Positions 7,554 to 59,901 of a stretch of DNA of 64,000 nucleotides are shown here, in pieces (position 1 is the first letter of the stretch; each line of letters begins with the position of its first letter). Below the pieces are notes generated by a model that had not been told where the DNA came from, did no database searches, and saw only the letters and a program-made list of their open reading frames with translations. Source of the stretch: Reticulascus tulasneorum (Eukaryota > Ascomycota > Sordariomycetes > Glomerellales > Reticulascaceae); the NCBI GenBank assembly GCA_001557505.1, contig LSAX01000012.1, positions 248,001 through 312,000 on the forward strand, in the 5' to 3' direction. Made by a program: the position numbers and the translations under genes.

Positions 7554-7592
7554 CTTGTTAGGTGATACGAATTTGCTCTACAAGGCTGTAGG

Positions 7593-10634: not shown

Positions 10635-10781
10635 CCCGCTCATAGCTTCTGATAATTATTGACTGTCGGCAGTTGCGCGTTTCACCCACCGACATCCGTA
10701 TGTCGCACGTAGCAGAGGCAAGTCCCAAGCTGGTGTACTCTCCGGAGAATCAGCACTATTTTCTCTCTCACCCGGTACGTC

Positions 10782-12134
10782 ATGTCCACTGCGGAGACGA
10801 ATATCGTCTCCAACGGCGAGGCCAATCTGCCCGCAAACCCTGACATTGCTGCGCATTACCGCACTCGTCTTTCTTCCAGCGAAGAGAAGAAGAGAGTTCA
10901 AAATCGTCTCGCCCAGCGAGCCTATCGTAAGTGCATAGCCCGGCTTCCCTGGCTTCACGATGGAAATCTAAAGGCTTACCGGAGTTCTTGCAGGTCGACG
11001 CCTGAAAGCCAAGCTAGCGGAGCTTGAAGAAAGAGTCAAGGTGCAGGAGCAGCATGTTGAGGAATCGACCAGAGGCCAGTCATGCAGCTCTGCTTTGGCA
11101 TCGACAACGGCATCTGGCATAGTGGACTCTACGTGTCCGGCACCGGCGGCGCCGCATGGCTCTGCTATAAATGTTTCTTTTTTCATGAGTAAGGGGCCAA
11201 CGTCGCTATTGACTATTTTATGTATGCTAAGCCATGATATGCTAACTTCACCAGCACCATCAAGTGATATCAATGGCAGCGGTGTTGCGTTTGGGGCTGA
11301 GGTTGTGGACCAAGTAGCCTTCCCCGACTCCAACGATTTGACCACAACCTTCTCGCCGGGGTCTCCTGTACCCGGGGCATCACGTTCAGCAGCGGGTGTG
11401 CCAGCAGGGTTCGGAAACCCACACACATTCTGCTCGCCCAAAGATCTTCATAATTCCAGCCCGGACAATGAAGCTCAAGGCCATTTGACTCACTACACCG
11501 CCGATGTGCCGCAAAAAAAAGTTCAGCGAAATATGGACGCCACTGCACCTGTTCAGGACCGTATTCGGTACATCATAGATCAGGCAGCAGCCGTGGGCTT
11601 TGACACTCTTGACGAGGTCGTGGCAGCATACTATGCCGAGATGTTTGAAGATACTTCTCCGCTGGGTCAGGATCAGAGACTAAACCGCAACCGGCGATTG
11701 CCTCAGCTTCTCAGCACCCTTCACCAGGCGGCCAAGGCCTGGAGCAAATGGGAGAGGCGGAAGTTCCAAGAACAGATTACCCTAGGCGCTGAAGAGATAC
11801 TTGTCGAGGAGTTGAAATCGTTCGTTGCGCAGCATCCAACTGGCTCTGCCGACCAGGAACGTGCATACAACCATCCGGGAGGTGAGCAGTTTGAAAGAAG
11901 GAGAGATCCAAGAGAGAGGCACAAAATCCAGGACGATGTAAGCACGCGTTCCTTGCCTTGTCCCCTCCTAGCATCTTCGACCGGCTGCAGCGGCCCGTGA
12001 TTGACAGAGAGGCAGCTTCCACACCTTTGGGCTCTGACAGCAGCTCTACTAGCCAAAACCAACGCACTCAAGCAAAACGCCAGCGCAGATGCAGTGCTTG
12101 CTGTAATCGAAATTTTGTGCTTCGGCCGAATTGA
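10782..12134 (+). CDS. bZIP transcription factor (candidate cluster regulator)
   Basis: Proposed exons are 10782-10926, 10994-11188, 11255-11937 and 12012-12134, giving 381 residues. Intron 1 (GTAAGT..CAG) splits the basic region; joining it gives RVQNRLAQRAYRRRLKAK, a classic fungal bZIP basic motif, followed by a short leucine-type coil (LAELEERVKVQEQ). Intron 2 (66 nt, CTAAC branch) is in frame and could be retained. Intron 3 is supported by comparison with the decayed copy at 17.3 kb: both then share a C-terminal stretch PLGSDxSS, RRxxSACC and FVL. A second conserved region (IRYIIDQAAAVGFDTLDE through the arginine-rich RLNRNRRLPQLL) lies near residues 230-320. It is divergent from NRPS 1 across a 3.2-kb spacer. 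The fungal bZIP family regulates secondary metabolism and stress genes; control of this locus is inference. Confidence 0.85.
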
Positions 12135-13906: not shown

Positions 13907-15860
13907 ATGGAGATCGATGATGGCGCCGGCGCGCCGAATCCGGCCGAGCTCCAGAACCAGCTGCAGTTTGATAAGGCCATTCGCGCCATACTGCAGAAGA
14001 AGCCTCTTCCTGAGATTGACTTTACCATCCATACCATGGAGGACGGCACCCAGGTCAACACCCAGGAGCGAGTTTGCAAAGGTATGGATTGACCACCGCG
14101 CCGCCACTCTTACCATCGCGCTATGTGTGCTCCTTCTCGCAAGACTACTTAGCACTGCGTCGCCTCGCTCAATCGCTAATGCACGCATGACGCGTCCAGA
14201 TGTGCCACCCCCTGCCATGTCCACCCCTAGTGATGAACAGTTCTACACAGACGGCACCCGCTCGAAGCCCAGCATCCAGTTCCTCAAGGACCATTTCTAT
14301 CGTGAAGGGCGCCTCACGGAGGAGCAGGCCCTCTTCATCCTCCACACAGGCAGCAAGCTGCTGCGCGCAGAGCCCAACCTCCTCGAGGTGGATGCGCCGA
14401 TTACTGTTTGCGGCGATGTCCACGGCCAATACTATGACCTCATGAAGCTGTTCGAGGTTGGCGGCGACCCGGCCGACACGAGATACCTCTTTCTGGGTGA
14501 CTACGTAGATCGGGGCTACTTCAGTATCGAGTGTGTTCTCTACCTCTGGTCGCTGAAAATACACTATCCCGACTCGCTCTGGCTGCTGCGCGGCAACCAC
14601 GAGTGCCGTCATCTGACCGAGTATTTCACATTCAAGCTGGAATGCAATCGCAAGTATTCCGAGGCCGTCTATGAAGCCTGCATGGAGTCTTTCTGCTGCC
14701 TACCTATTGCTGCTGTCATGAACAAGCAGTTCCTCTGCATCCATGGCGGCTTGAGCCCGGAGCTACATACCCTGGATGACCTGCGAAGAGTTAGTACCTC
14801 CTTCGATGAGCCATGGGGGAAACTGCGTCGCTGTATTTGTGATTTGGGGGTAGCTGATTTTGACCATGTAGATTGATCGTTTCCGCGAACCACCTACTCA
14901 GGGACTGTTATGCGACATCCTCTGGGCGGACCCCCTCGAGGATTTTGGCCAGGAGAAAACCACCGACTACTTCCTTCATAACCATGTTCGAGGCTGCTCT
15001 TACTTTTTCTCGTACTCGGCTGTCTGCAACTTCTTGGAAAAGAATAATCTGCTCTCTGTCATTCGAGCCCACGAGGCGCAAGACGCTGGATACCGTATGT
15101 ACCGGAGAACTCGTACCACAGGGTTCCCGAGTGTTATAACCATCTTTTCGGCTCCAAACTACATTGATTTCTACAATAACAAAGCAGCCGTCCTCAAGTA
15201 CGAGAACAACGTGTTGAACATCCGGCAGTTCAATAGCAGCCCTCACCCCTACTGGCTACCCAAGTTCATCAACGTTTTTACATGGTCGCTGCCATTCGTC
15301 GGTGAGAAGATTACCGACATGCTCCTTGCCATCCTCAGCACCTGTTCCGAAGAAGAACTCCGGGAGGATTCCTCGTCCACCTCGCCCGGTCCTGTGTCGC
15401 CGCCCCTTCCCTCGCCCGCTGGCCAAGAATCCGAGATCGACCTCAAGCGGCGGGCAATCAAGAACAAGATCCTGGCTATCGGCCGGCTGTCGCGTGTCTT
15501 CAATGTGCTACGAGAGGAATCCGAGAGGGTCACGGAACTGAAGACTGTCTCGGGCGGACGCCTACCTGCGGGCACACTCATGCTCGGTGCAGAGGGCATC
15601 AAGAACGCTATCCATGGCTTCCAGGATGCTCGTGAGGTTGACTTACAAAATGAGAGGCTGCCGCCCAGCCATGAGGAGGTGGTGCGACAGGCTGAGAAAG
15701 AGCGCCACCAGGCCCTCGAGCGGGCAGCGCGGGAGGCTGACGGCGACAAGAAGTTGCAGACCCTTTCGCGGAGGTTGAGCACGTAAGTACAAACCAGAGG
15801 GATTGGCGAAAGCGCTGTTCGGCTAACTGCTGGCCCGTTGGTAGTGATCATAAGAAATGA
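13907..15860 (+). CDS. cnaA: Calcineurin A catalytic subunit, copy 1 (altered drug-binding groove)
   Basis: Ca2+/calmodulin-dependent Ser/Thr phosphatase (PP2B). Exons 13907-14081, 14200-14789, 14872-15782 and 15845-15860 give 563 residues. Visible: metal-site motifs [19 protein letters not shown] and GNHECRHLT; the calcineurin B-binding helix around [12 protein letters not shown]; a calmodulin-binding region ([18 protein letters not shown]); and an autoinhibitory segment ([17 protein letters not shown]). All catalytic motifs are intact. The last exon is only 16 nt, preceded by GTAAGT and a CTAAC branch site, and encodes the ending DHKK. Compared with the usual YLDVYNN and [17 protein letters not shown] (human L312-M347 region), this copy reads YIDFYNN and [17 protein letters not shown]. 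That is L312I, V314F, C336S, N345K, M347I and D348N, clustered in the LxVP/cyclosporin-cyclophilin docking groove. It is probably an active enzyme with altered docking. Whether another calcineurin A exists elsewhere in the genome cannot be seen here. Confidence 0.95.
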
Positions 15861-17308
15861 TCGATGCAGGTAACTGCCACTAACAAGTGAATACGGGATG
15901 CTCGACAGGACGAACACCCCAAACCTTCATGTTGCGGTAGTGAGACCAAATAGGGGATCGCATGATTAGGAGAGTTTGTTTCTTGATGAGCTCGGCATCT
16001 AAAGATGAAAGCTCTTCCACTTGAACCTGTCATGCCCGCACCGACCACATATCACCACCAAAACACTGATTGGTGTGCTGGCACCCCGGTCGTGCCAGGT
16101 GGTCGTTCACTCCCTCACGGCAGCGAAGCTCGCGGCGAGCATTCACCGTCAGCCAGATACACCCGCGTATCCGTCAAAAGACTCACCACAACCTGCAATT
16201 AGGGCTTTCAAAGCCGTACGGCCCCAATTCCCTTGTACGGCTTTCACTTGTCCACTTCGCACGACGAGATCTTGAAAGCGAGCGACGACACGCAAGTGGT
16301 CACGCAGACGAGGAAAATGTCAGGAATCCAGCACGGACCATCATGACAGAATACATGGTCCAAGCTTTCTCAATCTGTAAACACCCAACGATGCGCAGGA
16401 AGGGCATAAATTCTTCATGATACTTGATGTTCTAGCTACTTCCTAGTAATAGAATATTCTGGCGAGAGACGGAGTCACAATTGAGGTGCATCGCAATCAT
16501 AGGATGCCTCTCATTCTTGCGAGTGCGGTATGTATTGATCAATATGGCGGGGGGAACGGTGGAAGAAAGTACACGCTTGATGTGACAGAATGGATCTTCT
16601 CGCATATCACTGAAGGGGAGGATTTTGGCCTGCACACGCAGCCCTATTCTACTGTGTTGCTTCTCATGCTATTGGTTTCCACAGTTTGCGCCAGGAAGTA
16701 AAGTAGTTGCTGCATTGTCAGGCAGTCCAGCCTGGCGACGAAGTCGGCGATATCCTAGTGACTGTAACATGACCGCACCCAGGTACAACGCAAGGAATAT
16801 GAGCCAATTATGGAGATGGTGAAAGAAGTTATAGCGCTTTCGGCGTGTGAGCCCTGCTGATAGTAAATCCTCGCTACTCTGGACGGTGTTTTAGCCGTGA
16901 AATAGATGGTACTGTCCACAGAACCCCTCCCCCCGGCAGCTGAATTTTGGATGTAGCCTTAAATATTACCATTCTTTAGATTATATTGAATGCGTTGAAC
17001 TTTTGATCGACAGCCGCGGTACTCCGTACTCGGTTGGGACATAGCTTGCTCTGTTTGCGCCCTGCCTGCTCGTTTTCAGGCATGCTCGGCCCCCAGCTTG
17101 CGACCCCCAAGCCCATGACGTTCCTTGGGGTCCCATATCCGTCATCGTCTTCCATTTACCAGCCATGCAGCTGACCAATGTGGCAAATATTAAATCCCTG
17201 TAAATCTAAGCCCTCCTTCACTAGCTTGTCTCACTCATATTACATGCGGGTCTGCAACCTGTGTTCTCAGCGGGAGAACCGGCAATGTAGGTCTCCCTCT
17301 TTCTTTGC
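15861..17308. other. Intergenic region between calcineurin A copy 1 and decayed bZIP
   Basis: Holds palindromic element copy 2 (16328-16371, reverse orientation). Open frames are short and unconvincing; no gene recognised. Confidence 0.6.
16328..16371 (-). promoter_or_regulatory. Dispersed palindromic element, copy 2
   Basis: On the minus strand: AGCTTGGACCAT, 13-nt loop, ATGGTCCGTGCTGGA. It lies about 470 bp downstream of the calcineurin A copy 1 stop. Confidence 0.7.
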
Positions 17309-18577
17309 ATCGTGTCGTCTGTGGGACCGGTACCATCCCCGACAATCTGCTCACGAATGACGGCACTCGACTTCCCAAGTGTAGGGAGAAGACGAGGGTC
17401 CAAAATCACTTCGCTCAGTGAAGCTATCGTACGTGTAAACCCCAATGGGGCTTCCCAAACTGCGTCAGAACAATACCAATGGTTGACGACATCTTTTACA
17501 GGGTGAGGCCCGAAAACCAGGTTCCAAAATCAGGCTCGAACAGCTTAAGGGAAAAGTCAGGGTGCCCGAGCAGCAAAGTTGAGGAATTGAACGGGGTCAA
17601 GTTGAGCAACTCGACTCTGGCATCGACGACTCCATCTACCGTAGTGGACTCGATGTGGTCAGCGCCGGCGATGCCGCATGAATCTGCGACCAGTGGCGAT
17701 TTTCTCATGAGTAGGTGAGCCGCATCGCTGGCGGCACCCGTGTGTGCAGCAAGCCACAGTGTACTTACTTCGTTAGCACCCTCATGCGATGCTGATGGCG
17801 CGTGTCCTCCATACGGGGCCGAAGCAATGGGCCAAGACGCTTTCCTCAACTCCAATGATTTAACCGCGGGATTCGGATTGGAAGGTGCATTATACTCGCC
17901 GCAGAGTCTCTATGACCCCAGCCCTAACAAAGAAGCCCAGCAACGCTCTGGGGACCACGTCACCGATGTGCCACAAGTTGATGTACAGCGGAACGTGGAC
18001 GCTGCTGCTCCCGTTGAAGATCGCATCCGTTATGTCATGGAACAGGCCGCAGCTGTGGGCTTTGACACTCTCGATGATGCGGTTGCAGCTTTCTACATAG
18101 AGAAATTTGAAGATACTTCTCTGCTATGCCAGGATCAGAGATTACGCCGTAACCGGCGATTACCTCGGCTTTTAAGTAGCCTTCATAATGCTGCCAAGGG
18201 CTGGGGCGAATGGGAGCGGCAAAGATTCCAAGAACAGATTACCCTGAGCGCCGAAGAGATTCTTGTCGAGGAGCTGCATTCGTTCGTTACACTGCATCCG
18301 ATGACCGCTCACAGAAAAGAACCTGCAACTAAGAATCTGGGAGGCGAGCAGCTTGGAAGCGAAAAGTTTCCGATGGCAATGCAGCAAGTCCAAAATCACG
18401 TAAGTACAGGTGCATTTACATTTTGGCTGGCCGCAGATGCGACTAACCAGACAGCTAGCTCCCAAACCTCTGGGCTCTGACAACAGCTCTGCTAGCAATA
18501 ACAAGTGCATCAAAGCAAGAGTCCCGCCCAGACGCAGACACAGTGCTTGCTGTTATCGAGGATTTGTGTTACCGTAA
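17309..18577 (+). pseudogene. Decayed bZIP transcription factor, second copy
   Basis: Aligns over its length with the bZIP gene at 10782-12134. The position of the start ATG is ATC (17309). The basic region reads RVQNHFAQ-stop-SY, with CGA replaced by TGA, and exon 2 has an insertion and further stops. The leucine-coil remnant RLEQLKGKVRVPEQQ can still be read. The 3' part stays open for about 246 codons (17740-18480) and is well conserved (IRYVMEQAAAVGFDTLDD, RLRRNRRLPRLL). Its last intron keeps GTAAGT and a CTAAC branch, and the C-terminal RRRHSACC..FVL ending at TAA 18577 is intact. So the DNA-binding half is destroyed while the C-terminal half looks preserved. A truncated protein starting downstream is possible but unproven. 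Confidence 0.8.
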
Positions 18578-19566
18578 GCCCATGAAAGGAGACTCGTAGC
18601 ATTCCAGCAGGGCCGGCAGGCGGTCTCCGAGGACTATACCAGACGTATCGGCTGTGGCTGCATTTCACGATCGGTTTCATAGCGGATTTTCCTGAGTATC
18701 ACGTTGTTTTGTGATGCTTTCTGTTGGGGCCCAATTCCAGGCCAAAATACCATTCTGTTGGATTGGTAACTCGCTAGACTCCTAGACGATACTATCGGAG
18801 TTTTTGGCTTATCGACGGAGTGAAGGGATCTTGCAGGAGGTATCAGGTGGTTCGTCAGGTACTTTACAAGAGGCTCCGCATGATGATAAAACACTCTCCA
18901 ACTCTCCAACTCTTCTTGATTAGTATGCACGCTACAAAGCGAGATTACCGTACTTCCCCAGTGCTCTAGCCACCATTTAGCATACATTACATCTACTGGC
19001 CATCCCGTTGAAAGGCCCGTAACCAGCCTCCGCAATAAGGCAGTCTGTTGGCTGTGGAATATAACATCTGATACCCTCAGAGGTTTGGAGGCCCACGGTG
19101 ATCAGGGCTATTAGTCTTTCCTATTGTGGGGTCATGATTTTTGTGTCAGAATGAAGTTTAGGAATGGAGACTAAATAGTGGCACAATGAAGAACTCCAGC
19201 TGCAGCGGAGATCGCTCAAATACGATTGGAAGTTGAGGCCATCACCCCAGCAAAAATGGACGATCACCGTCCCACTACGGAGCGGCCGGCATACCAGAGA
19301 TGGTGTTCAACAGGGTCTTGCGAAGTACACGATGTGCTTGTGCCGAGATAGGAGACGGTTGAGGTGACATATTAGTCGTGATACAGTTAATTAAAAAAAT
19401 CGAAGGGCTGCTAGACACGTGGTTAAACATTTCATTTATTACGTAATCTGACACGCCAGTGCATTTTGGGCTTAGTGTTTCTGATTTAATAATTTCTCGC
19501 CTGGAATCTGACTCGGGTCATTCCCATCAGACTTTTGCATAATCCCCCTCGTCCTCATCAACGGCG
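18578..19566. other. Intergenic region upstream of JmjC-like gene 1
   Basis: No recognisable gene. A 133-codon minus-strand open frame (18634-19035) lacks an ATG at its start and resembles nothing I know. Probably promoter for the gene at 19567. Confidence 0.5.
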
Positions 19567-22500
19567 ATGGCGGAAATGGCGTTAAAAGAACGCCTGTACT
19601 CGGCCATGGGCACCGAGGAGATGCGGGTACACACGTTGTTGTCACCTACGGCGGCCGCCATGAACTTTGCCGCCAGCTTTCACCGCGACGCGAAGGCGTG
19701 CCGCACCGCGCGTGAGCGAGAACAGCTGCACGAGATATACCGCGATAAGATCCTCGCCATTGACTCTCTTGCCGCAAATGTCGCGGCGGCATTCCTGCCC
19801 CTCCTCCATGCCGTTGCCGGGCGCAAGAGCGCCGATGCCGATCGCTGGGGTGATTTTGATCGCTTGGCGCAGCGTGGCAAGAACATGCGCGACCATGAGA
19901 GCCAGCACCTGCAGCATCAGTCGGGCATTATCGCTACCTGGGGGCTTGAATGCTTTCAATACTATGGCTGGCACGCCCTGCCGTTGCCACTTCTCCGTCA
20001 GCTGCATAGCCTAGCCGTGCTGATGCCACGCTGGGAAGATGTTGTCGACCTGCTTAATTCTAAGATGCTTGCCCGCCATGAACTTCGCGTTCTGCGCGGC
20101 AAGAATAATGCCCTCCGTGTCGGTGAGCATTCTGCCTCTTCCAAAGTGCAGGATGCTCGCTCCCCCGTCGAGCGCTCCGATATCCTCGCCGCCTTGGAAT
20201 GGGCTCGTCAAAAAGCCACATCTCCCGCCGCCCGCCAGCAGGTCAAAGATTCGGCGCGGGGCATCAACGGAACCCCAATCAAGCATTTTGGCCTGAAGCG
20301 GGATCTGTACGGCATGGTTGTGCCGTCGAGAGCCTCCAAGGACACCAACCGCGACAACGACGACGACGGCGACGAAGACGACGATGACGCGAACCACGTG
20401 CATGACCTCGAAGTGTCCGCTCGTCCGCACAAAAGGACCAAACTCGCAGCAACCGTACCTAGACGCCCAATGTTCCCGGGTTTAGTTGGCAACTACAAGG
20501 CTCATGAAACGGATGCTCGCGGCAGTGGATTTACACCTGACGTGACCTCCAGCAACAGAAAAGACAATGATCAGAACCGCAGTAGCGACAGGAGCGAATC
20601 ACCGCATTCCCATGAGTCAGAGATAGGATCCGAGAGTATGCTTGTTCAGGAAGAGCACACAGGCGACGACGACCAAGTTGTTGGGACGGCAGACACGGAA
20701 GAAATGCTGTTGGAAGAAGAACACGAGTCAGACCGAGGCTTGCAAGACGCACATGCTGACGTGGAGACGCCGCGGAGCTCCAGCATCAGCAGTGGGTTCA
20801 CAGAAGCTGAAGAGGACGAAGAGAATGGTGATGTGCACGACGCACAAGACGTCGTCAGCGAGAGTGAGAACGAGGCAGACAGCAGCCAAGAAAGCGAGGA
20901 TGAGGAAGTAGAAGATGCAGAGTCGAAGGAAAATGAGAGAACCACAGATGCAGGGGAAGAATTGGACTTGAACTTGGGTATGATCAGCCCGCAATCACAG
21001 AATCTAGACGTAATGGAAGAAGAGCGAGATGAGAGTGTTGTGGACTCTCGGAGAGGGGATAGCCCCGGAGAGAAGACCGATGTAGACCGCGGAAGAATCA
21101 TAGAAGCGGAGGCCGAAGAGGGAGCAGAAGAAGCAAACGAGGCAGATGGGACAGAAGAGCAGGCGCACAACTCAGGGGACGGAGAGAGCGAGGATGACGA
21201 TGGTAGAGAGGATTTGAGGACCGTGGCAGGGATTCTGGAGGGCCTGATGAGCACAGAACGAACTGGCACGAGCGTGGACAGGGCCGCCGAACCAGGACCA
21301 GCTAAGGCACTCAATCAGACGGCGCACACAGCGATCTCCTCCGGCTCGGCATCGCGCGCGCCGAGTCCTCCGTCAGACCTCACCGCAACGTCGTCATACC
21401 AGGCCCGCAAAACCGAGAGTTCAGCGCGACGTCCACTTTCAGCCGTGCTGGGTGGCGGCGATAATAACAATCTAACCACATTGGCGGGAGAGCCATTGCG
21501 TATGAACCCATCAGCCCCCACAGAAACACGATCGAGCGTTGCTGGCGAGGGTGAATCGTCCTCGCAGCAACCACCAACGCTGCTCGAGACCCTACAGCTG
21601 CGATATGCTGCCGAGCTCCACCAACTCGTTCAGGACCTGAGCAGGCCTCACGCATCACTAGACGTGACACATCAGCGTCGTTTGCAGCTTGACTGGTTGG
21701 CTCCGCAGCGCTGGGCCAGCATCTACGCTGAGCCAGAACAGCATGTAGGCAGAAGCTCTGTAACATCACCGGATGACGCCGACGTTTGGTATCTTAGCTG
21801 GGAGGCTTTCCGCCAATATGCCGACAACGGCCACATTTTCCGTCGTCCTGTCGTCATCAAACAGAAATTTCAGGACAGCGGCATGTACAACATCGCCGAA
21901 TATATCGACATGCTGTGGCAACGCTTTCCAGAGCAGCAGATCGAGGTGCAAAACAGTCTGACCGGCGCATGTGCGTCGATGAGCCTGAAGGATTATTGTC
22001 TGACTATTATCGATATCGACCTAAACTCCTCTGATGCCGCCGCCGCCATTAGCAGCATCATCAACCTTCGTCGTCTAGCACGAGCGGACGAACCGCTACT
22101 GAGCAGACTGACTCGATTCCGTCTGCTCTCGACGCTGGCGGATCGTGCGGCCGGAACCGTCGGCAAGAGCGAGCAGTTTGTCCCAAGCGACGTCGAAGGC
22201 TACCTGGGTTCCAACTTGCTGGGCTTTGCCGGCGCCTTTTCTAGATCCTACGTCGACTCCCTTGTCGGTAGCTGGGTGCGCTGTCTCGCCGGCCATAAGA
22301 TTTGGGCAATCTCCACCGACCTAGACGCCGATGATTGGCGGCGATTCTCAATCGAAGGCAGTAATTGGTCGCCACAAGGCAAAGGTCGTCTAATCGTGCT
22401 AGAGCAAGACGACGTCTTGTTTATGCCGCCAGGCTTACGTGCCATACAGGCCGGCTTTACGCCAGAGCCTTGTCTCATGGAAGGCGGCATGCTGTGGGAT

Positions 22501-22737
22501 GAATGCACCATCCCCGAGATCTTAAAAGGACTGCTTTGGATGGCAGAAAATCAAGCGTTTACCAATGAGTCTAGAGTTGTTCAGCTATCTACCCTCATGG
22601 ATGCGTTGGAGCAGTGGCTCGACGGCGGGAACCACGCCTTTTCACCTTCGCAACATGCCACCACCGACGAACATCGGGAAGCGGTCAAGGCCGGGATTGG
22701 GTCACTGCGCGCCCTCTGGCCGCAACTGCCGCTGTAG
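19567..22737 (+). CDS. Large JmjC-like protein 1 (degenerate metal site)
   Basis: Single exon, 1056 residues. The N-terminal region (1-235) is strongly conserved with the paralogue at 53141-56461 (AASFHRD, LECFQYYGW, LNSKMLARHELRVL). The middle (about 250-560) is acidic, Ser/Glu-rich and probably disordered. The C-terminal part (about 715-1056) resembles a JmjC fold: RRPVVIK near the front, then LLGFAGAF..GSWVRCLAGHKIWAI near residue 900, then DDVLFMPPG near 955 and MEGGMLWDE. JmjC oxygenases bind Fe(II) through HxD..H. Here the HVD site reads YVD and no His follows PPG, so catalysis by the normal mechanism looks lost. Role unknown; chromatin-associated or scaffold functions are guesses. Its duplication beside a bZIP copy suggests it travels with this locus. 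Confidence 0.8.
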   Translation: MAEMALKERLYSAMGTEEMRVHTLLSPTAAAMNFAASFHRDAKACRTAREREQLHEIYRDKILAIDSLAANVAAAFLPLLHAVAGRKSADADRWGDFDRLAQRGKNMRDHESQHLQHQSGIIATWGLECFQYYGWHALPLPLLRQLHSLAVLMPRWEDVVDLLNSKMLARHELRVLRGKNNALRVGEHSASSKVQDARSPVERSDILAALEWARQKATSPAARQQVKDSARGINGTPIKHFGLKRDLYGMVVPSRASKDTNRDNDDDGDEDDDDANHVHDLEVSARPHKRTKLAATVPRRPMFPGLVGNYKAHETDARGSGFTPDVTSSNRKDNDQNRSSDRSESPHSHESEIGSESMLVQEEHTGDDDQVVGTADTEEMLLEEEHESDRGLQDAHADVETPRSSSISSGFTEAEEDEENGDVHDAQDVVSESENEADSSQESEDEEVEDAESKENERTTDAGEELDLNLGMISPQSQNLDVMEEERDESVVDSRRGDSPGEKTDVDRGRIIEAEAEEGAEEANEADGTEEQAHNSGDGESEDDDGREDLRTVAGILEGLMSTERTGTSVDRAAEPGPAKALNQTAHTAISSGSASRAPSPPSDLTATSSYQARKTESSARRPLSAVLGGGDNNNLTTLAGEPLRMNPSAPTETRSSVAGEGESSSQQPPTLLETLQLRYAAELHQLVQDLSRPHASLDVTHQRRLQLDWLAPQRWASIYAEPEQHVGRSSVTSPDDADVWYLSWEAFRQYADNGHIFRRPVVIKQKFQDSGMYNIAEYIDMLWQRFPEQQIEVQNSLTGACASMSLKDYCLTIIDIDLNSSDAAAAISSIINLRRLARADEPLLSRLTRFRLLSTLADRAAGTVGKSEQFVPSDVEGYLGSNLLGFAGAFSRSYVDSLVGSWVRCLAGHKIWAISTDLDADDWRRFSIEGSNWSPQGKGRLIVLEQDDVLFMPPGLRAIQAGFTPEPCLMEGGMLWDECTIPEILKGLLWMAENQAFTNESRVVQLSTLMDALEQWLDGGNHAFSPSQHATTDEHREAVKAGIGSLRALWPQLPL

Positions 22738-24766
22738 CTGCCGAAGCTGTCGCAGCTGTCCCAGTATGCCCAAGAAGCGCCAGTGCACAGCATCGTGCCG
22801 GGCACGATCTCCCACACCTCTTAGCGCAGAGCCTAATGCCGATCATCCGGAGGAGGGAACTTTTACTTGTATGGGCGGCCGCCTGTGATGGGTCTGGCGT
22901 CTTTGTTCTCGTTTCCTCTCTCTCTCTGTGTCCTTCACATATGCAGGTAGTTTTGTGTGCGTCGTCAAATTTGTGGCTATTTGTGACATGTTTCTTCCCT
23001 TATATGTCTACTTTGCTTCGATGGCTCCGAGTGCATCACATCGTCTAAATCGCGCCGTGATAACAACATTTCATCATGCCATGTCAACAACCTCTCTACA
23101 ATGTGAAACACATGGCTAGGAAGATGTCTGTAGACGTGGGTTGGCTGGGGGAGGATTCTGGGCTCAGATGGTTGAAGAGGAAACATGGAGAATCGGATTC
23201 CTTAGGTATTCAAAACAGGTTATCCACCGACCTTACAATCGATACAAGTATTCAGGCGGTAGATATTAGTCATCCTAGCGGGGGGTGGTTCCCAGTGCAG
23301 ATACCAAGCAGAACACCTGTTTTACGAAGGACCTCAGTCCCCGTTGCTGATTGTACCCCATTAATCGAAGCCATGACTGCTGATAGCCTGCCGACTGCGA
23401 AGTGCTATCGCGTTGACTGTGTGTCAGAAGGCAGGCTGGCTCACCTGCGTAACTGGAGGTTCGGGCCTCCCATCGATGACCCCTCTCTTAGGACTCGGGA
23501 GCGAGCAAGGCTCTACAAGGCCGCTACAAATATAGGCATCTATGGAGTCACGGGTGCCCAGTGCACCTGCAGTGCTGTAATCCACTACAACCCGCTACAA
23601 CACCTCTCTACATTAATTATCATGGATCGTGATCAACTTCAAAAGCCATCGGGGATGTAGTGTGATGGTGGACGAGATAGAGCTTGGACCATCGACCCGG
23701 CTTCATGGCCCGTGCCGGAATACCTACTGTAAGATACTTGGGTCCCGTATGTTCTTACTGGGATGGGGTCACAAAGAGTAAGCATGTCGTGGAGCGCTTT
23801 CGAACCCCCCATACGCTCGCATGCATTGCGTGGCCCATCGAGATATCGTCGTACGAAGCAACGAAGCGGATGGGGGCACTGTGTACGAAGTATGTCCACA
23901 GCAGCAAGCCATCCTAGATTCAGCTCGGATTCGGCGGCGCTGAGCCACTGGCTCGCAGACTCCCTGCTAAATAATTACTAGGTAATTATTACAGTGGGGG
24001 GCCAAAAAAAAGGGACTGCTGATCCCCCATGCCCCCCTCCCCCCCGGATCGTGCGGAGCTGCCCAAAGCGGTACTACGAATTTCCGCTACGTTTACTTCT
24101 GCCTAGCGTTCTTGGGAGGGGTGGCCAGGCCCAAATGTTCTGCCACACTCTGTAGGATACGGTATAATCTTTAAGGATGGCCGCCGCGAACCTCAAAAGC
24201 AAGCAATGCGACCAAAACCCACTTTAGCCGCTATCAATTTCTCTCAAGATGACCCTGGGAGGTTTTGCGGCTCGTGCAAGCTCCAGAAATATTTCGAAAG
24301 CGTACGAAGTAGTAATAAAGCCCAGTAGGAGGTTTTGGTCACGGGGGAATAAACGTTCAGGCCCCCCGGGCGCTTACTGCATAATCCTACACTGAAATTA
24401 TCTGTGTTACCCTGAATCCCGAAAGGGTACCTCATTCTGTTTTTTTTTTGGTTTATTACGCCGTGCGGGAGCAACCAAGCTTCGTCCACATTTCTAGATT
24501 ACGTGTTTCCCCCCCCCCTTTCCCAACGTGATTCATACCTTCTGCCTTCGCGCTTGAATTTCTCTCGTGCTTCGGAGTCGTGACGTGCTTTCTTCACGAA
24601 TCGATTGATTTTTCGCTATCTCGTACGGTCGCTAATTAATATTGGAAGCCCGTTTCAATTTTAGTCTAGGCGCGCCTTGTCCGACTTCGGTGGGAGCGCT
24701 CTCGTGCCTTCTAGCCGTCGTCCACCTCCAGTATCCTGGGGGCTGGCCCTGCTGAAGCCGTTCGAA
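22738..24766. other. Intergenic region between JmjC-like gene 1 and ABC transporter
   Basis: Contains palindromic element copy 3 (23679-23719). A 194-codon plus-strand open frame from ATG 23076 matches no family I know and is probably chance. The 3' half carries C, T and A homopolymer runs. Promoter of the transporter is expected near 24500-24766. Confidence 0.5.
23679..23719 (+). promoter_or_regulatory. Dispersed palindromic element, copy 3
   Basis: AGCTTGGACCAT, 12-nt loop, ATGGCCCGTGCCGGA. The right arm has two T-to-C changes relative to the other copies. It lies about 1.1 kb before the ABC transporter ATG. Confidence 0.65.
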
Positions 24767-27700
24767 ATGGAGACCGGCAAGGGAGAAAAGAGCGAGGACG
24801 TCGCCGAGGAGCCCATCGTTGACCCTGAGAATGCCAAAACAGTTTCCGATTCGACCCCCGAGAATCCCGAGGAGGCAAGGCCTGCATCCCCGGAGAGGGA
24901 GCCAACCGTGAAAGACTATATCCGAATCTTCAGCTTTGCCAAGAGATGGGACATTGTTCTCATGATCGCGGCCGCCATCGCCAGCGTGGGAGCCGGTATC
25001 ACCATACCTCTCATGATCGCTATCTTCGGTAGGCTTGTTTCCGACTTCAATAGCTACGGGGGTCCCAGCACCCAATCGCAGAGCGCCTTCAATGACCTCT
25101 TGGACCAGCAGGCCCTATACATGTTTGGCCTATTCATTGCCCGTTTTGGACTCAGCTACATTAGCAAGGTTCGACTACGGTCCGAGAACCCCCCAGTTCA
25201 CCCTCCCGACCACTAACCACCGGGCACTAGTTCTCATTTCGCATGATCGGTATCCGCATGTCGGCGGCCGTCCGACTGCAATATCTGCGATGTCTCTTCG
25301 GCCAGACCGTCCACGTGCTTGACTCGATGCAACCCGGCGCGGCGGCTACCACTATCACGGCAACATCGAATATTCTGCAAACTGGCATTTCTGAAAAGCT
25401 TGGTACTTTTCTCGAACACACTGCCACTATCGTCGCCGCCACTGTCATTGCCTTTATCTATAGCTGGTCCTTAACCCTGGTCACCATCTCGGCGTTCCTC
25501 TTCATCGTCCTCGTGTTTGCCATCCTCCTGCCCTTCATTATCAGGGGCCATGTAAAACTCAACAAGGCCGAGACAAAGGCAGGCTCCGTGGCAACCGAGG
25601 CTTTCAGTGCAATTCGCATGATCGCCTCCTGCGGCGCCGAGGGCCGGACGGTCGAGAAATACTCCGGATGGGTCCAGCAAGCCCGACAAGCCGGTCATGG
25701 CATGAGCCCCTTTATGGCTGTTCAGACCGGGCTCTCCTTTTTTGGTATCAACGGAGCCTTTGCCCTGACTTTCTGGTATGGCACTAAATCGTACGACGAG
25801 GGTCGTATTAGTAATGTCGGGACCGTCGTTATTGTCATGATGAGTGTCTTACTCATGGTGTGCGTGATCCAGCCCTTCGCGGTTCCACTTTCTGCTATTT
25901 GCGGAATCCAGCCCCAGCTCTTCTGATGGTGTGCTAACCTGCCGCCATTAGATCTTCTCTGTCGCAGGTCTCTACCCCGCTGATTGCAATTTCCAAGGCG
26001 ATAGTCGCCGCATCTGAGTTCTTCGCAGTTATCGATGCGCCGAAACCAGAGACTGGGTCACTCAAAGCACCGACTGTAAATTCAACTTCTGATATCATCT
26101 TCAGCGATGTTCAATTCGCATATCCTGGCCGTCCTTCTAAGAAGGTGTTAGATGGGCTGAACCTTCACATCCAGGCCAACAAGAACACTGCCATCGTCGG
26201 CCCCAGTGGCTCCGGCAAGAGCACTATCATCGGGCTCATCGAGGGATGGTATACTCTCCATGACCAGTACGTCATCGCTAAGACCATCGAAAAAGACAAG
26301 AATAAGGCAAAGAAGAAAGATAAGAAGACAAAGAAGAAGGATAAGAATGCATCTGATAATGATGACGGCGAGGGGATTGCCATATCGCAGCCCGCCCCCG
26401 AGGATCTAGAACCTCGTGTGGAGCTCAAGGGCAGCATTTCTACGTGTGGGCATGAGATCGAGCAGATAGACATGAAGTGGTGGCGCTCACAGATAGGACT
26501 GGTCCAACAAGAGCCTTTCCTGTTCAACGACACTGTCTTCAAGAACGTATCCTCAGGCTTGATCGGTACTGAGTGGGAGAACGAGTCCGATGAGAAGAAA
26601 CGCGAGCTGGTCAAGGAGGCCTGCAAAGAGAGTTTCGCAGACGAGTTTATCGACCGGCTCCCGGACGGCTACGACACTCAGGTGGGAGACTCGGGCACCA
26701 AGCTCAGTGGTGGTCAGCGGCAGCGCCTCGCCATTGCGCGTAGCATCATCTCCAAGCCTAACATTCTCATACTCGACGAAGCCACATCTGCGATTGACGT
26801 CCGCGGCGAACAAATCGTACAGGCGGCGCTGGACAGGGCCTCGAGGGGTCGCACCACCATCACCGTCGCCCATAGGCTGTCCACCATCAAGAATGCCGAT
26901 CAGATTGTCGTCCTTCAGCACGGAAAAGTCGTCGAGCAGGGTACTCACAACGGCCTCCTTGCAAACCCGGAAGGCGCCTACTACGGCTTGGTGTATGCCC
27001 AGAAACTCTCTCTCGGGGACTCGGAAGAGGATGAGCCTGCGCATAAGGGGGACGACGGGGCGATTCTCGAGCGCGAGAGGAGCGCTGCTCAGTCGGAAAC
27101 CGTTGCAGCCACCCAAAACGCAAAGTGGAAGGATAAAAATCTGTTCAGCGGCTTTGGGAAGCTGTTATACGAACAAAGAAGCCGCTTCCCACTCTATGCC
27201 ATCGCCATCATCTTTTCCGCCGGAGCGGCAGCGGGCGCACCCCTCCAAGCATACTTCATGGCCCACGCCATCGCGGTCTTCCAGAAAACGGGCCGCGAGC
27301 TGCGGGAGGATTCGGAGTTCTGGTCCACGATGTGGGCTGTCCTCGCGGTGTGCGTCGGAGTATGTTACTTTCTGGTGGTGGCCGTGTCAACGCGCGTTGA
27401 GCACTTCATCGCATGTGTGTATCGCCAAGAATACTTCGAGTCCATCCTGTTGCAGAAGTCGTCCTACTTTGACCAGGAGGATAATGCCACCGGCCAGCTG
27501 ACAGCTCGTCTCTCGGCCGATCCCACTGCGCTAAAGGAGCTCCTCGGCATCAACACGTGCATGCTGCTGATAGGTGTCTTCTCCGTCATCGGCGCTCTCG
27601 CTATCTCGTTCGCCTACGGCTGGAAGCTGGCACTCGTCGCCCTCTGCGTCATCGTTCCAATCAACACTTTAGGCGGCTTCTACCGAATCCGCTACGAAAT

Positions 27701-28958
27701 ACAGTTTAACGACATGAACGAAGCCGTCTTCTCGGAGAGCTCCAAGTTCGGCGCCGAGTCCATCGGCGCATTCCGGACGGTTTCGTCTCTTGTGATGGAG
27801 GACAGCATCTGCGTGCGATACGAGAGACTCTTGAACGGGCACGTCTCGGGAGCCTACAAGAAGGCGCGATGGACCACGCTCATTTTCGCCTTCTCGGACA
27901 GCGTCGGGCTAGCTTGCCAGGCCCTCATCTTATGGTACGGCGGCCGCCTGCTCTCTACCGGAGAGTACGGAGCAATCTCGTTCTTCGTGACCTACATGGC
28001 CGTCATCCAAGGCGCGGAATCGGCCGGTCAGTGGCTCAGCTACGGGCCAAATGCCGCCCAGGCCTCCGCAGCGGCCAACCGCATCCTGAACGCCCGAGAC
28101 AGCCGGGTCAAGGAAGAGGTAGCAGCCGCCCCGATCTCTGTCCCTGACACGGAAGGCGGTATCCAGATTCAGATTGAGGATGTCCACTTCAAGTACCCGA
28201 CGCGTGACGTGCCTATTTTCAAGGGCCTCAACCTCACCATCGAGAAAGGTCAGTTCGCGGCGCTAGTCGGCGCATCGGGGTCCGGCAAGACGTCGATTGT
28301 GTCCCTTCTAGAGCGATTCTATGATGTTGACAGGGGCCACGTTCTGTTCAACGGCAAGGACATCAGCAAGATCAATGTCCATGAATACCGCAAGCTTCTT
28401 TCGTTGGTTGCTCAGGAACCTTCTCTGTTCTCCGGCTCCATCCGCGAAAACATCCTTCTCGGCGTCAACCCCGACGAGGTCACGGATGAGCAGCTGCACC
28501 AGTGCTGCCGTGACGCCAATATCCACGACTTCATCGTCTCGCTGCCCGACGGATACAACACCGAAATCGGCAGCAAAGGCGTCAGTCTCAGCGGCGGCCA
28601 GAAGCAAAGAGTCTCGATCGCCCGTGCCCTGATCAGGAATCCGCGCGTGTTGCTGCTCGACGAGGCGACGAGCTCTCTGGACTCGGAGAGCGAGAAGATC
28701 GTGCAAGCGGCGTTTGAGACGGCGGCGAAAGGCCGGACGACCATCGCCGTCGCGCACCGGCTGGCTACCATCCAGAAGGCTGACATCATCTACGTGCTCG
28801 CCGACGGGAAGGTGCTCGAGAAGGGTTCCCATACCGAGCTGCTCAAGTTGAAGGGTATCTATTGGCACATGGTGAGTTCGCGGCTATTTACATTCTATCC
28901 CGTCTGGCAATTGCTAACTTCAAGGGGCCAGTGTCAAAACCAGGCCCTCGACCGATAG
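24767..28958 (+). CDS. Full-size ABC transporter, ABCB/MDR type (TMD-NBD-TMD-NBD)
   Basis: Exons 24767-25168, 25231-25859, 25952-28871 and 28932-28958 give 1325 residues. ATG 24767 begins METGKGEK; a TTG-led upstream extension is open but lacks an ATG. TMD1 starts near residue 60. NBD1 shows Walker A GPSGSGKST, signature LSGGQRQR and Walker B ILILDEATSAID; NBD2 shows GASGSGKTS, LSGGQKQR and VLLLDEATSSLD. Both halves look competent. Oddly, NBD1 has a Lys-rich insertion (26283-26350, KKKDKKTKKKDK-like) between Walker A and the Q-loop region. The last intron is in frame; splicing it gives the family-like end MCQNQALDR. Such pumps export hydrophobic compounds and are common in fungal peptide clusters. 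Export of the NRPS product is inference. The gene converges on calcineurin A copy 2. Confidence 0.93.
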
Positions 28959-29465
28959 AGTGCGGTCGGATATCCCATACATCTGTACTCTACTTACGCA
29001 CATGGGACTTTGTAAGGCAATCTAATATTCTGCTCTGACCGGGAACGACAAGGAAACGGGGGGTCATCTTCAGATACAAGTCGTTGTTCAACCTACACCA
29101 TGGCGGCGTGCAACGAATTGCGCTGCAGCTCTGCATTGCTTTTACCAATGTAGTCAACCTTACGTTTTTGGAAGACAGAGGTGTGGGAATAACTTATAGG
29201 GGCGGATGGCACTGCATTTTCGGACGGAAAAGGACATTACTACACTGCATGGGTCGAATCGTTAATGTATTTGGTCCAAATACTCAGAAGCTCGTATATC
29301 GTAGAGATGCCAGCTCCAACCACTTAATTTCGTCTAAGAACCACTTTCCATCCAGTGGGCCATACCATTTCCTTCTTGGATGTCATGATATATGATGTCG
29401 TGGTCTGTGCTGCCTGGCATTTCTATACCCACCTGCTGCTGTTCCTGCACAGCTACCTATGTCTT
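28959..29465. other. Convergent 3' spacer between ABC transporter and calcineurin A copy 2
   Basis: About 500 bp that probably holds the 3' UTRs and poly(A) sites of both genes. No other feature recognised. Confidence 0.6.
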
Positions 29466-31456
29466 TTATCGCTTTCGCTCACTGCCGGAAGATAAGGAGT
29501 AAGTACCAAGTAGCAAATCTAACAAAGTAATGAACCGACAAACTCACATGCTCAACTTCCTCGAGAGGCTCTGCAGGTTCTTGTCACTCTCGGCCTCCCG
29601 TGTCGCCCGCTCCAGAGCCTGTTGGCGGTCGTCGGCTGCCTGTCGCACCACCTCATCGTGGCTCGGAGGCAGTCTTTCGTTCAGTATGTCGACCTTGCGG
29701 GCGTCCTCGAAATTGGTGATGGCATCCTTGATGCCGTCAGCTCCGTGCATGAGTGTTCCGGCGGGCAAGCGGCCGCCCGAAGCAGTCTTGAGCTCTGTAA
29801 CTCTCTCCGACTCCTCGCGCAGGACGTTGAAGACGCGTGAGAGCCGGCCAATGGCAAGTATCTTATTCTTGATCGCCCGTTGCTTGACCTCGATCGACTC
29901 GGGATCTTGGCTGCCAGGGGAGGGGAGCGCGGGGGACACTGGGCCCGGCGAGGCGGACTCGGAATCTTCCCGGAGCTCCTCCTCTGAGAGCGTGCCCAGC
30001 ATGGCAAGCAGCATGTCTGCGAACTTCTCGCCGACGAAGGGGAGGGACCACGTAAAGACATCCATGAAGTTGGTGAGCCAGAAAGGGTGCGGTGAGCAGT
30101 TGAATTGGCGGATATTCATGACGTTGTTCTCGTACTTCAGCACGGCCGCCTTGTTGTTGTACGTGTCGAGATAGTTCGGCGCCGAGAAGATAGTCATCAC
30201 ACTGGGGAAGCCTGTTGTCCGAGTCTTGCGGTACATACGGTAACCGGCGTCTTGCGCCTCGTGCGCCCGGATGATGGAGAGCAGGTTATTCTTTTCCAAG
30301 AAGTTACAAGCAGCCGAGTATGAAAAAAGGTACGAGCAGCCTCGAATATGGTTATGGAGGAAGTAGTCGGTAGTTTTCTCCTGACCAAAGTCCTCCAGAG
30401 GATCGGCCCAGAGTAGGTCACACATCAAGCCTTGCGTGGGTGGCTCGCGGAAACGATCGATCTACGGTACAGATTAGCGACGCCCCGGGTTCCCTCGTGG
30501 GGGTAGTGTGGGTGGAGGGGGGAGGGGTGTAGGCAACCAACATTCCGGAGGTCATCTAGTGTATGCATCGCCGGGCTCAGCCCGCCGTGGACGCAGAAAA
30601 ACTGCTTGTTCATGAGAGCGGCGAGCGGGAGGGCACAGAAGGATTCTACGAAGGCTTCGTAAATGGCTTCGGAATACTTGCGCTTGCATTCCAGCTTGAA
30701 GGTGAAGTAGTCGGTCAAGTGGCGACACTCGTGGTTCCCACGTAGCAGCCAAAAGGTGTTGGGGTAGTGTATTTTTAGCGACCAGAGATACAGAACACAT
30801 TCAACACTAAAGTAGCCGCGGTCGACGTAGTCGCCAAGGAAGAGATATCTTGTCTCGGCTGGGTCGCCGCCAACCTCAAAGAGCTTCATGAGATCGTAGT
30901 ACTGACCGTGGACGTCGCCGCAGACGGTAATTGGCGCTTCCACCTCCAGCAGGTTGGGTTCGGCGCGGAGCAGCTCGGTGCCTTTTCCAAGTATGAAGAG
31001 GACCTGCTCCTCGGTAAGGCGGCCCTCACGGTAGAAGTGCTGCTTGAGGAAGTGGATGTTGGGCTTTTCCCGCGTCTCATCGTGGTAGAATTGCTCGTCG
31101 GTGGGGGTCAACCATGCGGGGGCTTGCGCGTCTGCGAAAACGAAAACCCATCAGCGACTGGGTTGGTCGGTCGGTCGCGAGGCATGCTTTTGGGGGTCGC
31201 GGGGGAGGGGGAGAGGAGGGGAGGGAAGGGAAGGGAAGGTGGTTAGGGAGGATTGAAATGACGACGAGAAAGAATCGGGAAGAGAACCTTTGCAGACACG
31301 CTCTTGTGTGCTGACCTGGGTGCCATCCTCCATGGTATAGATGGTGAAGTCGATCTCGGGGAGCGGCTTCTTCTGCTGTATAGCGCGAGTGGCATTTTCG
31401 ACCTGCTGCCTGCGAAGCAGCTCGGCCGCGCTGGGCGGTGAGCTTGCGCCGTCCAT
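29466..31456 (-). CDS. cnaA: Calcineurin A catalytic subunit, copy 2 (altered drug-binding groove)
   Basis: Minus-strand exons 31456-31288, 31131-30542, 30461-29548 and 29481-29466 give 562 residues. The exon plan matches copy 1, including a 590-nt exon 2 and a 16-nt last exon (here ending IERKR; without the last splice it would end LSM). Metal-site motifs [19 protein letters not shown] and GNHECRHLT are intact, as are the CnB helix ([12 protein letters not shown]), the calmodulin region and the autoinhibitory segment ([17 protein letters not shown]). In the docking groove it reads YLDTYNN and [17 protein letters not shown], i.e. V314T, Y341F and P344T in human numbering. From memory, a laboratory cyclosporin-resistant calcineurin A combines changes at these same two positions (V314 and Y341). 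The N-terminus ([14 protein letters not shown]) differs from copy 1. Probably active. Confidence 0.95.
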
Positions 31457-48375: not shown

Positions 48376-49954
48376 CTACAACTTATTTCTCATATTCGAC
48401 CTCCACTTCGAATAATGATGCTCTTCCGTCGTGGGAATGAGATGATCCACTGCAAGTGTGCTAATTAAGCCCGGATGGAGCTGATCGAGGCTCGTGGCGC
48501 CACACATGCGCATGGTTGTCTCCAGCTCGTCGATGAGAACTGCGGCAGCTTTAGCAATGTCTATACCTCGCCAGAACTGGCCAAAGGGTGTGGATAGCGC
48601 AGAACTTACTCTCGGCATACCTCCTCACCCCTTCTCTCCCATAATTCAACCCATACAAAAACCCTCTTCCTATGCCCACAGCCTTTGCCCCCAAGCACAG
48701 CGCCTTGAAGATATCCGTCCCCCTCGAGATGCCTCCGTCCACATACACCTCCATCTTATCGAACACCTGCGGACAGCACCGCCGCAGCTCCAGCAGCACC
48801 AGAATCGTCGCTGGGCTGGTATCAAGACTCCTCCCGCCATGGTTAGACAGCACGATGCCGTCCACCCCGACGTCCATCGCACGCACCGCGTCCATAGCCG
48901 TTTGGATCCCCTTCAGCACGACCGGCATCCCGGGCACGGTCCGCCGCACCCAGGCGATGTCATCCCAAGTCACCGAGGCGTCGATGTAGTTGCCTGTGGT
49001 GCGCCCCAGACCGCCGCCCTTGGAATCGTTGCGCGCCTGCTCGCCCGTCCTGGGGTTGGACAGGCTCTCCTCGACCGCTGCACGCTCGTCGGCCTCGCGC
49101 TTTCCCGCAACGGGCGAGTCGACGGTCATAACGACGCCGCGGACGCCAGGGAGGCTAGCGGCCTCTCGCAAAAGCGCCTCGGATCGGACGCGGATCTTGT
49201 CGACGTAAAGCTGGAAGAACAGCACGCCATCGGACGGCCCCTCGTCGTCCCCGGCGAGCGGGAAGTGCGAGCTAACAGCTGCGGCGATCTCGCGAAGCGG
49301 GTACGAAGCCGAGGTGGAGATGTACTGCGCGAGACCAAGGTCCCTGCAGGCGCGGCCAAGCTCCTTCTCGCCGTCCGGGTGGAAGACTTTGCCGAGGCTG
49401 GTCGGGGCGCAGAAGATTGGGGCGCGGACGCGGTGGCCGAGGATAGCGGTAGAAATGTTGACGTGCCGAACGTCGACAAGGACACGGGGACGGAGCGTAA
49501 TGGCGGCGTACGTGGAGGCGTTGCGTCGCTTGGTGTACAAGTCGGTGGCGGCGGAAGACACGAAGGCCCAGGTTTTGGGAGAGTACGAGACTGAGGCAGC
49601 GGCTTCAAAATCTCGGGCGTTGATAAGGGTTTCCAGGAGGGGTTTGGCAGGCATTGACCTCCGGGAGATGCGTAATTGTGATAGCGACTGGGTCCAGCTC
49701 TCAGGGACGGTGTTCTTGTCGAGCACTCCAACATGCTTCGCGACGGGGAGAGTAGACTTGATGAGTAAGGGGGCGTGGACGTCGTCGTAAGCCGCCGTGG
49801 CATCTCGCCCGGCGTACTGAAGCAATATACTTGCGCCTCCCGGATGGGCTGGTGCAAATTCGGTCATGTCATAGACGAATCCATTCACAACCAACCACAT
49901 GTCCTCCAATGAGGCATGTTTTTGGACATCTAGGGCTGATATCTCTGCTGGCAT
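48376..49954 (-). CDS. Cytochrome b5-FMN alpha-hydroxy-acid dehydrogenase (flavocytochrome b2 type)
   Basis: Exons 49954-48610 and 48539-48376 (70-nt intron, GTAAGT) give 502 residues. The N-terminal cytochrome b5 domain has heme ligands in AHPGG (His37) and DDVHAP (His60). The FMN barrel spans about 110-490: APIFCAPTSLGKVFHPDGE, YISTSASYPL, GVVMTVDSPV, VVLKGIQTAMDA, the active-site SNHGGRSLD and the FMN-phosphate site YVDGGISRGTDIFKAL. Family role: oxidation of L-lactate or related L-2-hydroxy acids to 2-keto acids with electrons passed to the heme; Saccharomyces CYB2 is mitochondrial. No clear mitochondrial presequence precedes the b5 domain here, so location is uncertain. Its substrate class touches 2-hydroxy/2-keto acid metabolism, which the NRPS locus also needs, but a link is speculative. 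Confidence 0.93.
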
Positions 49955-54812: not shown

Positions 54813-54844
<32 letters not shown>

Positions 54845-59726: not shown

Positions 59727-59901
59727 AGATACAGATACCCGGCAGACGCGTGCTTCGTATCATGCGGATGACTACTCAACGCGAGCCGACGCACGTATAG
59801 AAATTAATGTAGGACACGTGCTCCAAGAGCATTTTGAGAGGCCAGGTACTTGACTTCGGCTTGCGAGATCTGTTCACTAACGATACCAAGCTGGCTAGTC
59901 G

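Follow-up and report, generated by a model that had tools for sequence, protein, structure and literature searches.

The window analysed here is a stretch of 64,000 nucleotides from the genome of Reticulascus tulasneorum (42.8 Mb in 35 contigs), corresponding to positions 248001-312000 of the contig that we call C4. It contains two altered genes for calcineurin A (CnA), here copy 1 and copy 2, which sit between two giant nonribosomal peptide synthetase (NRPS) genes that are divergent and point outward (Table 1). Both CnA genes had been described in an earlier note made from the sequence alone, and splicing and alignment confirmed their coordinates and integrity. Their three introns match those of the conventional CnA gene in position. 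The proteins are 80% identical, and the comparison of copy 1 with copy 2 gave dN 0.121, dS 1.45 and dN/dS 0.084 by the Nei-Gojobori method; dS between the altered copies and the conventional gene yielded no estimate and is presumably saturated. Purifying selection acts between the two copies, and both genes are real and intact.

All 13 catalytic or structural residues that were checked are unchanged in both copies. The metallophosphatase catalytic residues D90, H92, D118, N150, H199 and H281 are present, the calmodulin-binding stretch is intact, and the autoinhibitory C-terminal region retains its NERLPPS stretch. The residue check and the alignment thus agree with the earlier claim that the catalytic and calmodulin motifs are kept.

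When the complete genome was searched at the protein level for a third, conventional copy, as the earlier note had proposed, one was located on contig C15. Its YLDVYNN and HPYWLPNFMD segments are like those of other fungi, with none of the docking changes described below. Each of our protein searches rests on the best 120 matches; compared with the 120 best full-length matches, the conventional CnA reached an identity of at most 91%, with Colletotrichum and Verticillium among the nearest. Extra copies of the target in the cluster together with a normal copy elsewhere, here on C15, are the arrangement by which target duplication is recognized.

Table 1. Features of the locus and the conventional CnA gene. 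Positions count from the first base of the window unless a contig (C4, C15) is named.
Feature	Position	Strand	Basis or remark
Copy 1, altered CnA	13907..15860	+	4 exons, 563 aa; spliced reading and alignment
Copy 1 exons	13907-14081, 14200-14789, 14872-15782, 15845-15860	+	Spliced reading
Phe codon of copy 1 at the human V314 position	15169..15171	+	Sequence, column counts
Copy 2, altered CnA	29466..31456	-	4 exons, 562 aa; spliced reading and alignment
Copy 2 exons	31456-31288, 31131-30542, 30461-29548, 29481-29466	-	Spliced reading
Thr codon of copy 2 at the human V314 position	30162..30164	-	Sequence, column counts
Phe codon of copy 2 at the human Y341 position (equivalent to A. fumigatus cnaA-Y363F)	30081..30083	-	Sequence; PMC9788591
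Thr codon of copy 2 at the human P344 position, in the LxVP pocket	30072..30074	-	Sequence; PMC3582496
Conventional CnA, third copy	C15:2547028-2548862	-	Protein search of whole genome
Left NRPS, 5' part	1..7577, reaching C4:222080	-	Pfam C/A/T; 8 modules in all
Right NRPS, start	63041..64000, on to C4:355746	+	Open frame 14902 aa; C match below cut-off at start
Ketopantoate/ketoisovalerate-reductase-like gene (ApbA and ApbA_C), two open pieces	59899..61189	+	Pfam
ABC transporter, two open pieces, candidate exporter	25231..28955	+	Pfam
bZIP-like regulator candidate, over two frames	10713..11997	+	NRLAQRAYR basic-region-like stretch, then heptad-like stretch
FMN-dependent 2-hydroxy-acid dehydrogenase with cytochrome b5 domain	48554..49969	-	Pfam; NCBIfam below its cut-offs
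Thioesterase-like (4HBT_2)	50889..51743	-	Pfam

Changes at the docking surface

In human numbering, copy 1 carries L312I, V314F, N345K, M347I and D348N, and copy 2 carries V314T, Y341F and P344T; every change listed in the earlier note is present. T351, W352, S353, L354 and F356 are unchanged in both. To judge how rare the changes are, we compared 299 other CnA, made up of the 120 best full-length matches and 179 from searches in which the altered 61-residue stretch of each copy served as the query (best 120 of 3452 and best 120 of 3488 matches). Because they were drawn with the altered stretch, the 179 are biased toward altered residues.

Position 314 is V in 260 of the 299; the others have T (14), A (10), M (5), L (4), S (3), or R, I or N (one each). 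Phe at this position was found in none of the 299, for which the altered-stretch searches contributed from the best 120 matches of each. At 341, Y occurs in 297 and F in 2, and at 344, P occurs in 297 and another residue in 2; K at 345 and I at 312 each occur in none of the 299. Two further changes were seen: C336S in copy 1, which is not unusual since S is found in 35 of the 299, and T362A in copy 2, where A is found in 1. The earlier description of V314 as near-invariant holds among the 120 best full-length matches (118 have V) and fails across the full set. As to whether relatives share the altered residues, a point that the earlier note had raised against its own reading, the closest CnA in general retain V314, Y341 and P344; the Monosporascus MC13-8B protein and that of Aspergillus lucknowensis depart from this, and some CnA vary at 314 only.

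Several of these sites have known effects in other calcineurins. The LxVP pocket is lined by Y341, L343, P344, W352 and F356, and cyclosporin prevents LxVP-mediated substrate recognition (PMC3582496). In A. fumigatus, whose CnA numbering exceeds the human by 22 (V336 is V314, Y363 is Y341 and N367 is N345), the loop 7 changes L334A, D335A and V336R of cnaA are reported to give variable cyclosporin resistance at 10 ug/mL, Y363F and W364A to be cyclosporin-resistant at 10 ug/mL, and N367D, W374L and S375T to influence FK506 sensitivity (PMC9788591). The human protein with V314R and Y341F resists cyclosporin and has been used in CAR-T cells (PMC10733396). Cyclosporin resistance from changes at V314 and Y341, which the earlier note had mentioned for an engineered human protein, is documented in both the human and the A. 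fumigatus proteins. The engineered changes fall at the same two sites as those in our genes, Y341F being identical in copy 2, while copy 1 retains Y341. Copies 1 and 2, in contrast, are natural genes, with F and T at 314, and have extra changes at 344 (copy 2) or at 312, 345, 347 and 348 (copy 1).

The synthetase locus

The right NRPS has 11 modules and six N-methyltransferase (PF08242) matches, in modules 2, 4, 5, 7, 8 and 10; extra spacing between motifs falls in the same modules. A cyclosporin-type NRPS would end in a cyclising C domain; the C-terminal tail of the right NRPS, read by eye, looks C-like. Its first adenylation domain (A1) has FGAC, with Gly at GrsA position 235, and A2-A11 have FD, with Asp. 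Gly at this position is also reported for the enniatin D-hydroxyisovalerate domain (PMC11253843), and module 1 of the right NRPS is predicted to be of the hydroxy-acid type. Module 9 has a Val- or Leu-like code. A search of solved structures with the A1 domain returned mostly bacterial NRPS and did not settle the substrate. Directly upstream lies the reductase-like gene, the only one on C4 among the genome's five ApbA_C matches; it is the likely source of a D-2-hydroxy-acid starter. Downstream, C4:356909-370774 encodes a P450, a class IV aminotransferase and a polyketide synthase whose domains are KS, AT, DH, MT, ER-like, KR and ACP. In the cyclosporin pathway SimG, SimI and SimJ, which are enzymes of these three kinds, make the amino acid Bmt (PMC6168864). 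By its module count, its N-methyltransferase pattern and the adjoining Bmt-type genes, the right NRPS is of the cyclosporin type, as the earlier assignment of the NRPS genes to a related family had anticipated.

The left NRPS has a methyltransferase in five of its eight modules, and its module 1 is also of the hydroxy-acid type. Its A1 is 71% identical to the right A1, and its module 6 A domain is 83% identical to that of right module 5; from the order of residues in cyclosporin, these last two domains may take Bmt.

The locus shares with the cyclosporin (sim) cluster of Tolypocladium inflatum an 11-module N-methylating NRPS, the three kinds of Bmt-pathway gene (polyketide synthase, P450, aminotransferase) and an ABC transporter (PMC3688495, PMC6168864). 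The sim cluster also has a bZIP-type regulator, for which there is only a candidate here, and a cyclophilin, SimC, where this locus has two altered CnA instead; none of the genome's 17 PF00160 (cyclophilin) matches lies on C4. SimA is reported to methylate substrates 2, 3, 4, 5, 8 and 10 (PMC3688495), whereas module 3 of the right NRPS is without an N-methyltransferase. The hydroxy-acid-type first module and the reductase-like gene are further differences from the sim cluster; a cyclosporin-type cluster would have a SimB-like alanine racemase for D-Ala, and for this locus a hydroxy-acid starter is predicted instead.

A closer likeness may be to SDZ 214-103, which we take to be the [Thr2,Leu5,D-Hiv8,Leu10]-cyclosporin of Cylindrotrichum oligospermum. 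On that composition, and with residue 7 of the SimA product presumably Sar, N-methylation is predicted in modules 2, 4, 5, 7, 8 and 10 together with a hydroxy-acid module 1, and the right NRPS matches this prediction. The same methylation pattern would be expected for FR901459 of Stachybotrys, but this compound, as we understand it, has D-Ala. The architecture and neighbours of the right NRPS fit an SDZ 214-103-like peptolide of the presumed composition. Cylindrotrichum is listed as a maker of a cyclosporin-related compound (PMC3688495). Cylindrotrichum species are also tabulated among the data of a study on Glomerellales, and the conventional CnA of this genome is near those of Colletotrichum and Verticillium.

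C4 as a whole is rich in similar genes. Its giant single-frame NRPS open frames encode 17604, 13015, 13783, 7600 and 3565 (these two being neighbours), 14902, 22758 and 24626 aa; of 145 candidate Condensation matches 75 were scored and listed, all of them on C4, and between about 20 and 561 kb of this contig there are at least seven giant NRPS loci. The frames of 22758 and 24626 aa have about 16 and 18 modules, judged by domain spacing, and are longer than the largest NRPS known to us (about 20900 aa). Next to the 22758-aa NRPS is a second polyketide-synthase-like stretch with KS and MT matches (C4:472887-477594, minus strand), perhaps a second Bmt supply. Within the window, a short AMP-binding match at 46988-47695 (minus) is possibly an NRPS remnant.

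Many gene families are duplicated along this stretch of C4. The ABC transporter has two further copies within C4:178001-402000. Two NB-ARC/TPR genes, at 32271-34790 (minus) and 39044-42949 (plus), are 88% identical over 836 aa and have a more distant relative at C4:379728-383285. Long open frames at 19543-22734 (plus) and 53144-56665 (minus), with no Pfam or NCBIfam match, are 63% identical over 519 aa; a third relative is at C4:189943-191298. The bZIP reading of the candidate regulator is our assumption from the look of the motif; its part at 10972-11997 gave no Pfam match, and relatives of that piece occur on C4. A duplicate of calcineurin B was not seen near the locus among the genome's 21 EF-hand (PF13499) matches, of which C4 has a single one, at 1.11 Mb.

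A shared lineage

The CnA of Monosporascus sp. MC13-8B (P0010) carries V314M, Y341F, P344T, M347I and D348N. In a tree of 52 rows it formed a clade with copies 1 and 2 (support 99/95), apart from four Monosporascus CnA with the usual residues and from the conventional CnA of this genome. The clade was still supported at 99/95 when human positions 305-372 were removed (36 rows). With those positions removed, grouping the MC13-8B protein with the four other Monosporascus CnA was rejected (p-AU 0.0015), the constraint being a genus-based group chosen after the first tree was seen. Within the clade, the pairing of copy 2 with the MC13-8B protein had weaker support, 91/82, and 88/47 with the columns removed. 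These trees contain long branches (about 0.3 for copy 1 and 1.09 for the A. lucknowensis CnA) and should be read with caution.

The earlier view that the two copies were altered independently did not survive this analysis: they belong to one lineage with the MC13-8B protein, although their residues at 314 differ.

The A. lucknowensis CnA (P0165) has V314R and Y341F naturally, which is the engineered cyclosporin-resistant pair, and also P344S and T362S. It was placed far from the altered clade in the 52-row tree, and therefore its pair of changes probably arose independently. MC13-8B has been described as a strain of M. cannonballus, and the words cyclosporin, nonribosomal and NRPS do not occur in the main text of the paper on its genome (PMC7407469). 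We consider the odds to be even that a naturally drug-resistant CnA lineage, carried with cyclosporin-family clusters, has travelled between fungi that are distant from each other (this one and Monosporascus), with A. lucknowensis reaching V314R and Y341F on its own. If this is true, altered CnA copies would be markers of hidden calcineurin-inhibitor clusters.

Proposed self-resistance and its alternatives

We propose, with a probability of roughly 0.8, that copies 1 and 2 serve a cyclosporin-family locus as self-resistance genes of the target-duplication kind. On sequence evidence this reading, first put forward in the earlier note, is well supported, short of proof, by the third copy, the cyclosporin-type NRPS and the changes at known resistance sites; the resistance itself we infer. 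The reductase-like gene would feed a hydroxy acid to the right NRPS, the polyketide synthase, P450 and aminotransferase would supply it with a Bmt-type amino acid, and the product would be a cyclosporin-like undecapeptolide. This peptolide would bind the fungus's own cyclophilin, and the complex would dock on the LxVP/V314-Y341 surface of the conventional calcineurin and inhibit the enzyme. Copies 1 and 2, presumably expressed with the cluster, have kept their catalytic residues and calmodulin-binding stretch and have a changed docking surface, and would bind the drug-cyclophilin complex poorly. Since the complex would no longer fit their docking surface, calcium signalling would continue through them.

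Several observations weigh against this proposal. Copy 1 retains Y341, P344 and W352. The 14 CnA with T at 314 include some from yeasts, so V314T alone is weak evidence. The left NRPS has an in-frame TAG outside the window, at C4:244880-244882 (minus strand), that separates the A domain of module 3 from its T domain and is either a nonsense change or a sequence error. The excess of changes at the docking surface is also modest. We counted changes at 13 docking sites (312, 313, 314, 341-345, 351-354 and 356) taken from the literature (PMC9788591, PMC3582496), a list drawn up after the changes were known. Three sites are changed in each of copy 1, copy 2, the MC13-8B protein and the A. lucknowensis protein, and none in the conventional CnA. 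Sites 351 and 354 are included on our own presumption. Among the 297 other CnA, with gaps counted as unchanged, 259 have no docking site changed, 17 have one, 21 have two and none has three. Hypergeometric p values with 97% conservation and 119 references were 0.039 for copy 1, 0.045 for copy 2, 0.039 for Monosporascus and 0.11 for A. lucknowensis; with all 297 references they were 0.39, 0.042, 0.13 and 0.13. At 85% conservation, in the same gene order, they were 0.065, 0.079, 0.072 and 0.16, and 0.025, 0.034, 0.034 and 0.057. Across the four settings, the per-gene excess thus spans p 0.025-0.39 for the four genes. For a wider stretch (310-317 and 339-362) p ranged from 0.013 to 0.48, and another version of that test gave 0.06 for copy 1 and 0.014-0.016 for copy 2. 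The statistical case is modest, and the identity of the residues changed carries more weight; chance is weakened as an explanation, though not excluded by statistics alone.

The modest enrichment, the duplication of many families along this stretch and the variability of V314 in some fungi speak for another reading, in which the copies lie in an NRPS region rich in duplications and drift there with their constraint relaxed, the docking changes being due to chance. We think this very improbable, given the low dN/dS, the intact catalytic residues, the lineage shared with a Monosporascus CnA even without the docking columns, and the recurrence of Y341F with a change at P344 in A. lucknowensis. 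The extra CnA could instead be regulators of the cluster, part of a calcium/calcineurin signalling devoted to turning on peptide synthesis, whose docking changes retune the choice of LxVP substrates and not drug binding. Y341 and P344 also line the pocket for substrate LxVP motifs (PMC3582496), and both enzymes look catalytically intact. Yet the changed sites are ones whose mutation confers cyclosporin resistance, they occur next to a cyclosporin-type synthetase, and a bZIP-like candidate regulator, as read from its sequence, is already in the locus; a regulatory role seems to us improbable. The extra calcineurins might also soak up the drug-immunophilin complex. The retained residues of copy 1 would suit such a role, and in T. 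inflatum self-protection is attributed to the transporter and to the cluster cyclophilin SimC, for which drug binding has been suggested (PMC6168864). A protein that works by binding the complex should keep its docking surface unchanged, however, and both copies alter it, which makes this explanation very improbable.

For target-duplication self-resistance, the lovastatin cluster offers a parallel, with an extra copy of the target, HMG-CoA reductase, in the locus and a normal copy elsewhere, as here (PMC10691236). The difference is that calcineurin is reached by the drug only through cyclophilin. Where the literature consulted gives cyclosporin as an example of target-based resistance, the example rests on the cyclophilin gene (PMC10691236). 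A full-text literature search, with most subscription journals outside its coverage, returned no report recognizable as a calcineurin gene serving self-resistance.

Compared with the cyclophilin and transporter of T. inflatum, the final target itself seems here to have been duplicated and altered at the surface that meets the drug-cyclophilin complex. The two copies offer a directly testable case of a natural cyclosporin-resistant calcineurin, in variants that by their sequences still look like working phosphatases, and the window with its flanks probably carries the genes behind a cyclosporin-like peptolide. CnA changed at positions 314, 341 and 344 may serve as a search handle for new calcineurin inhibitors.

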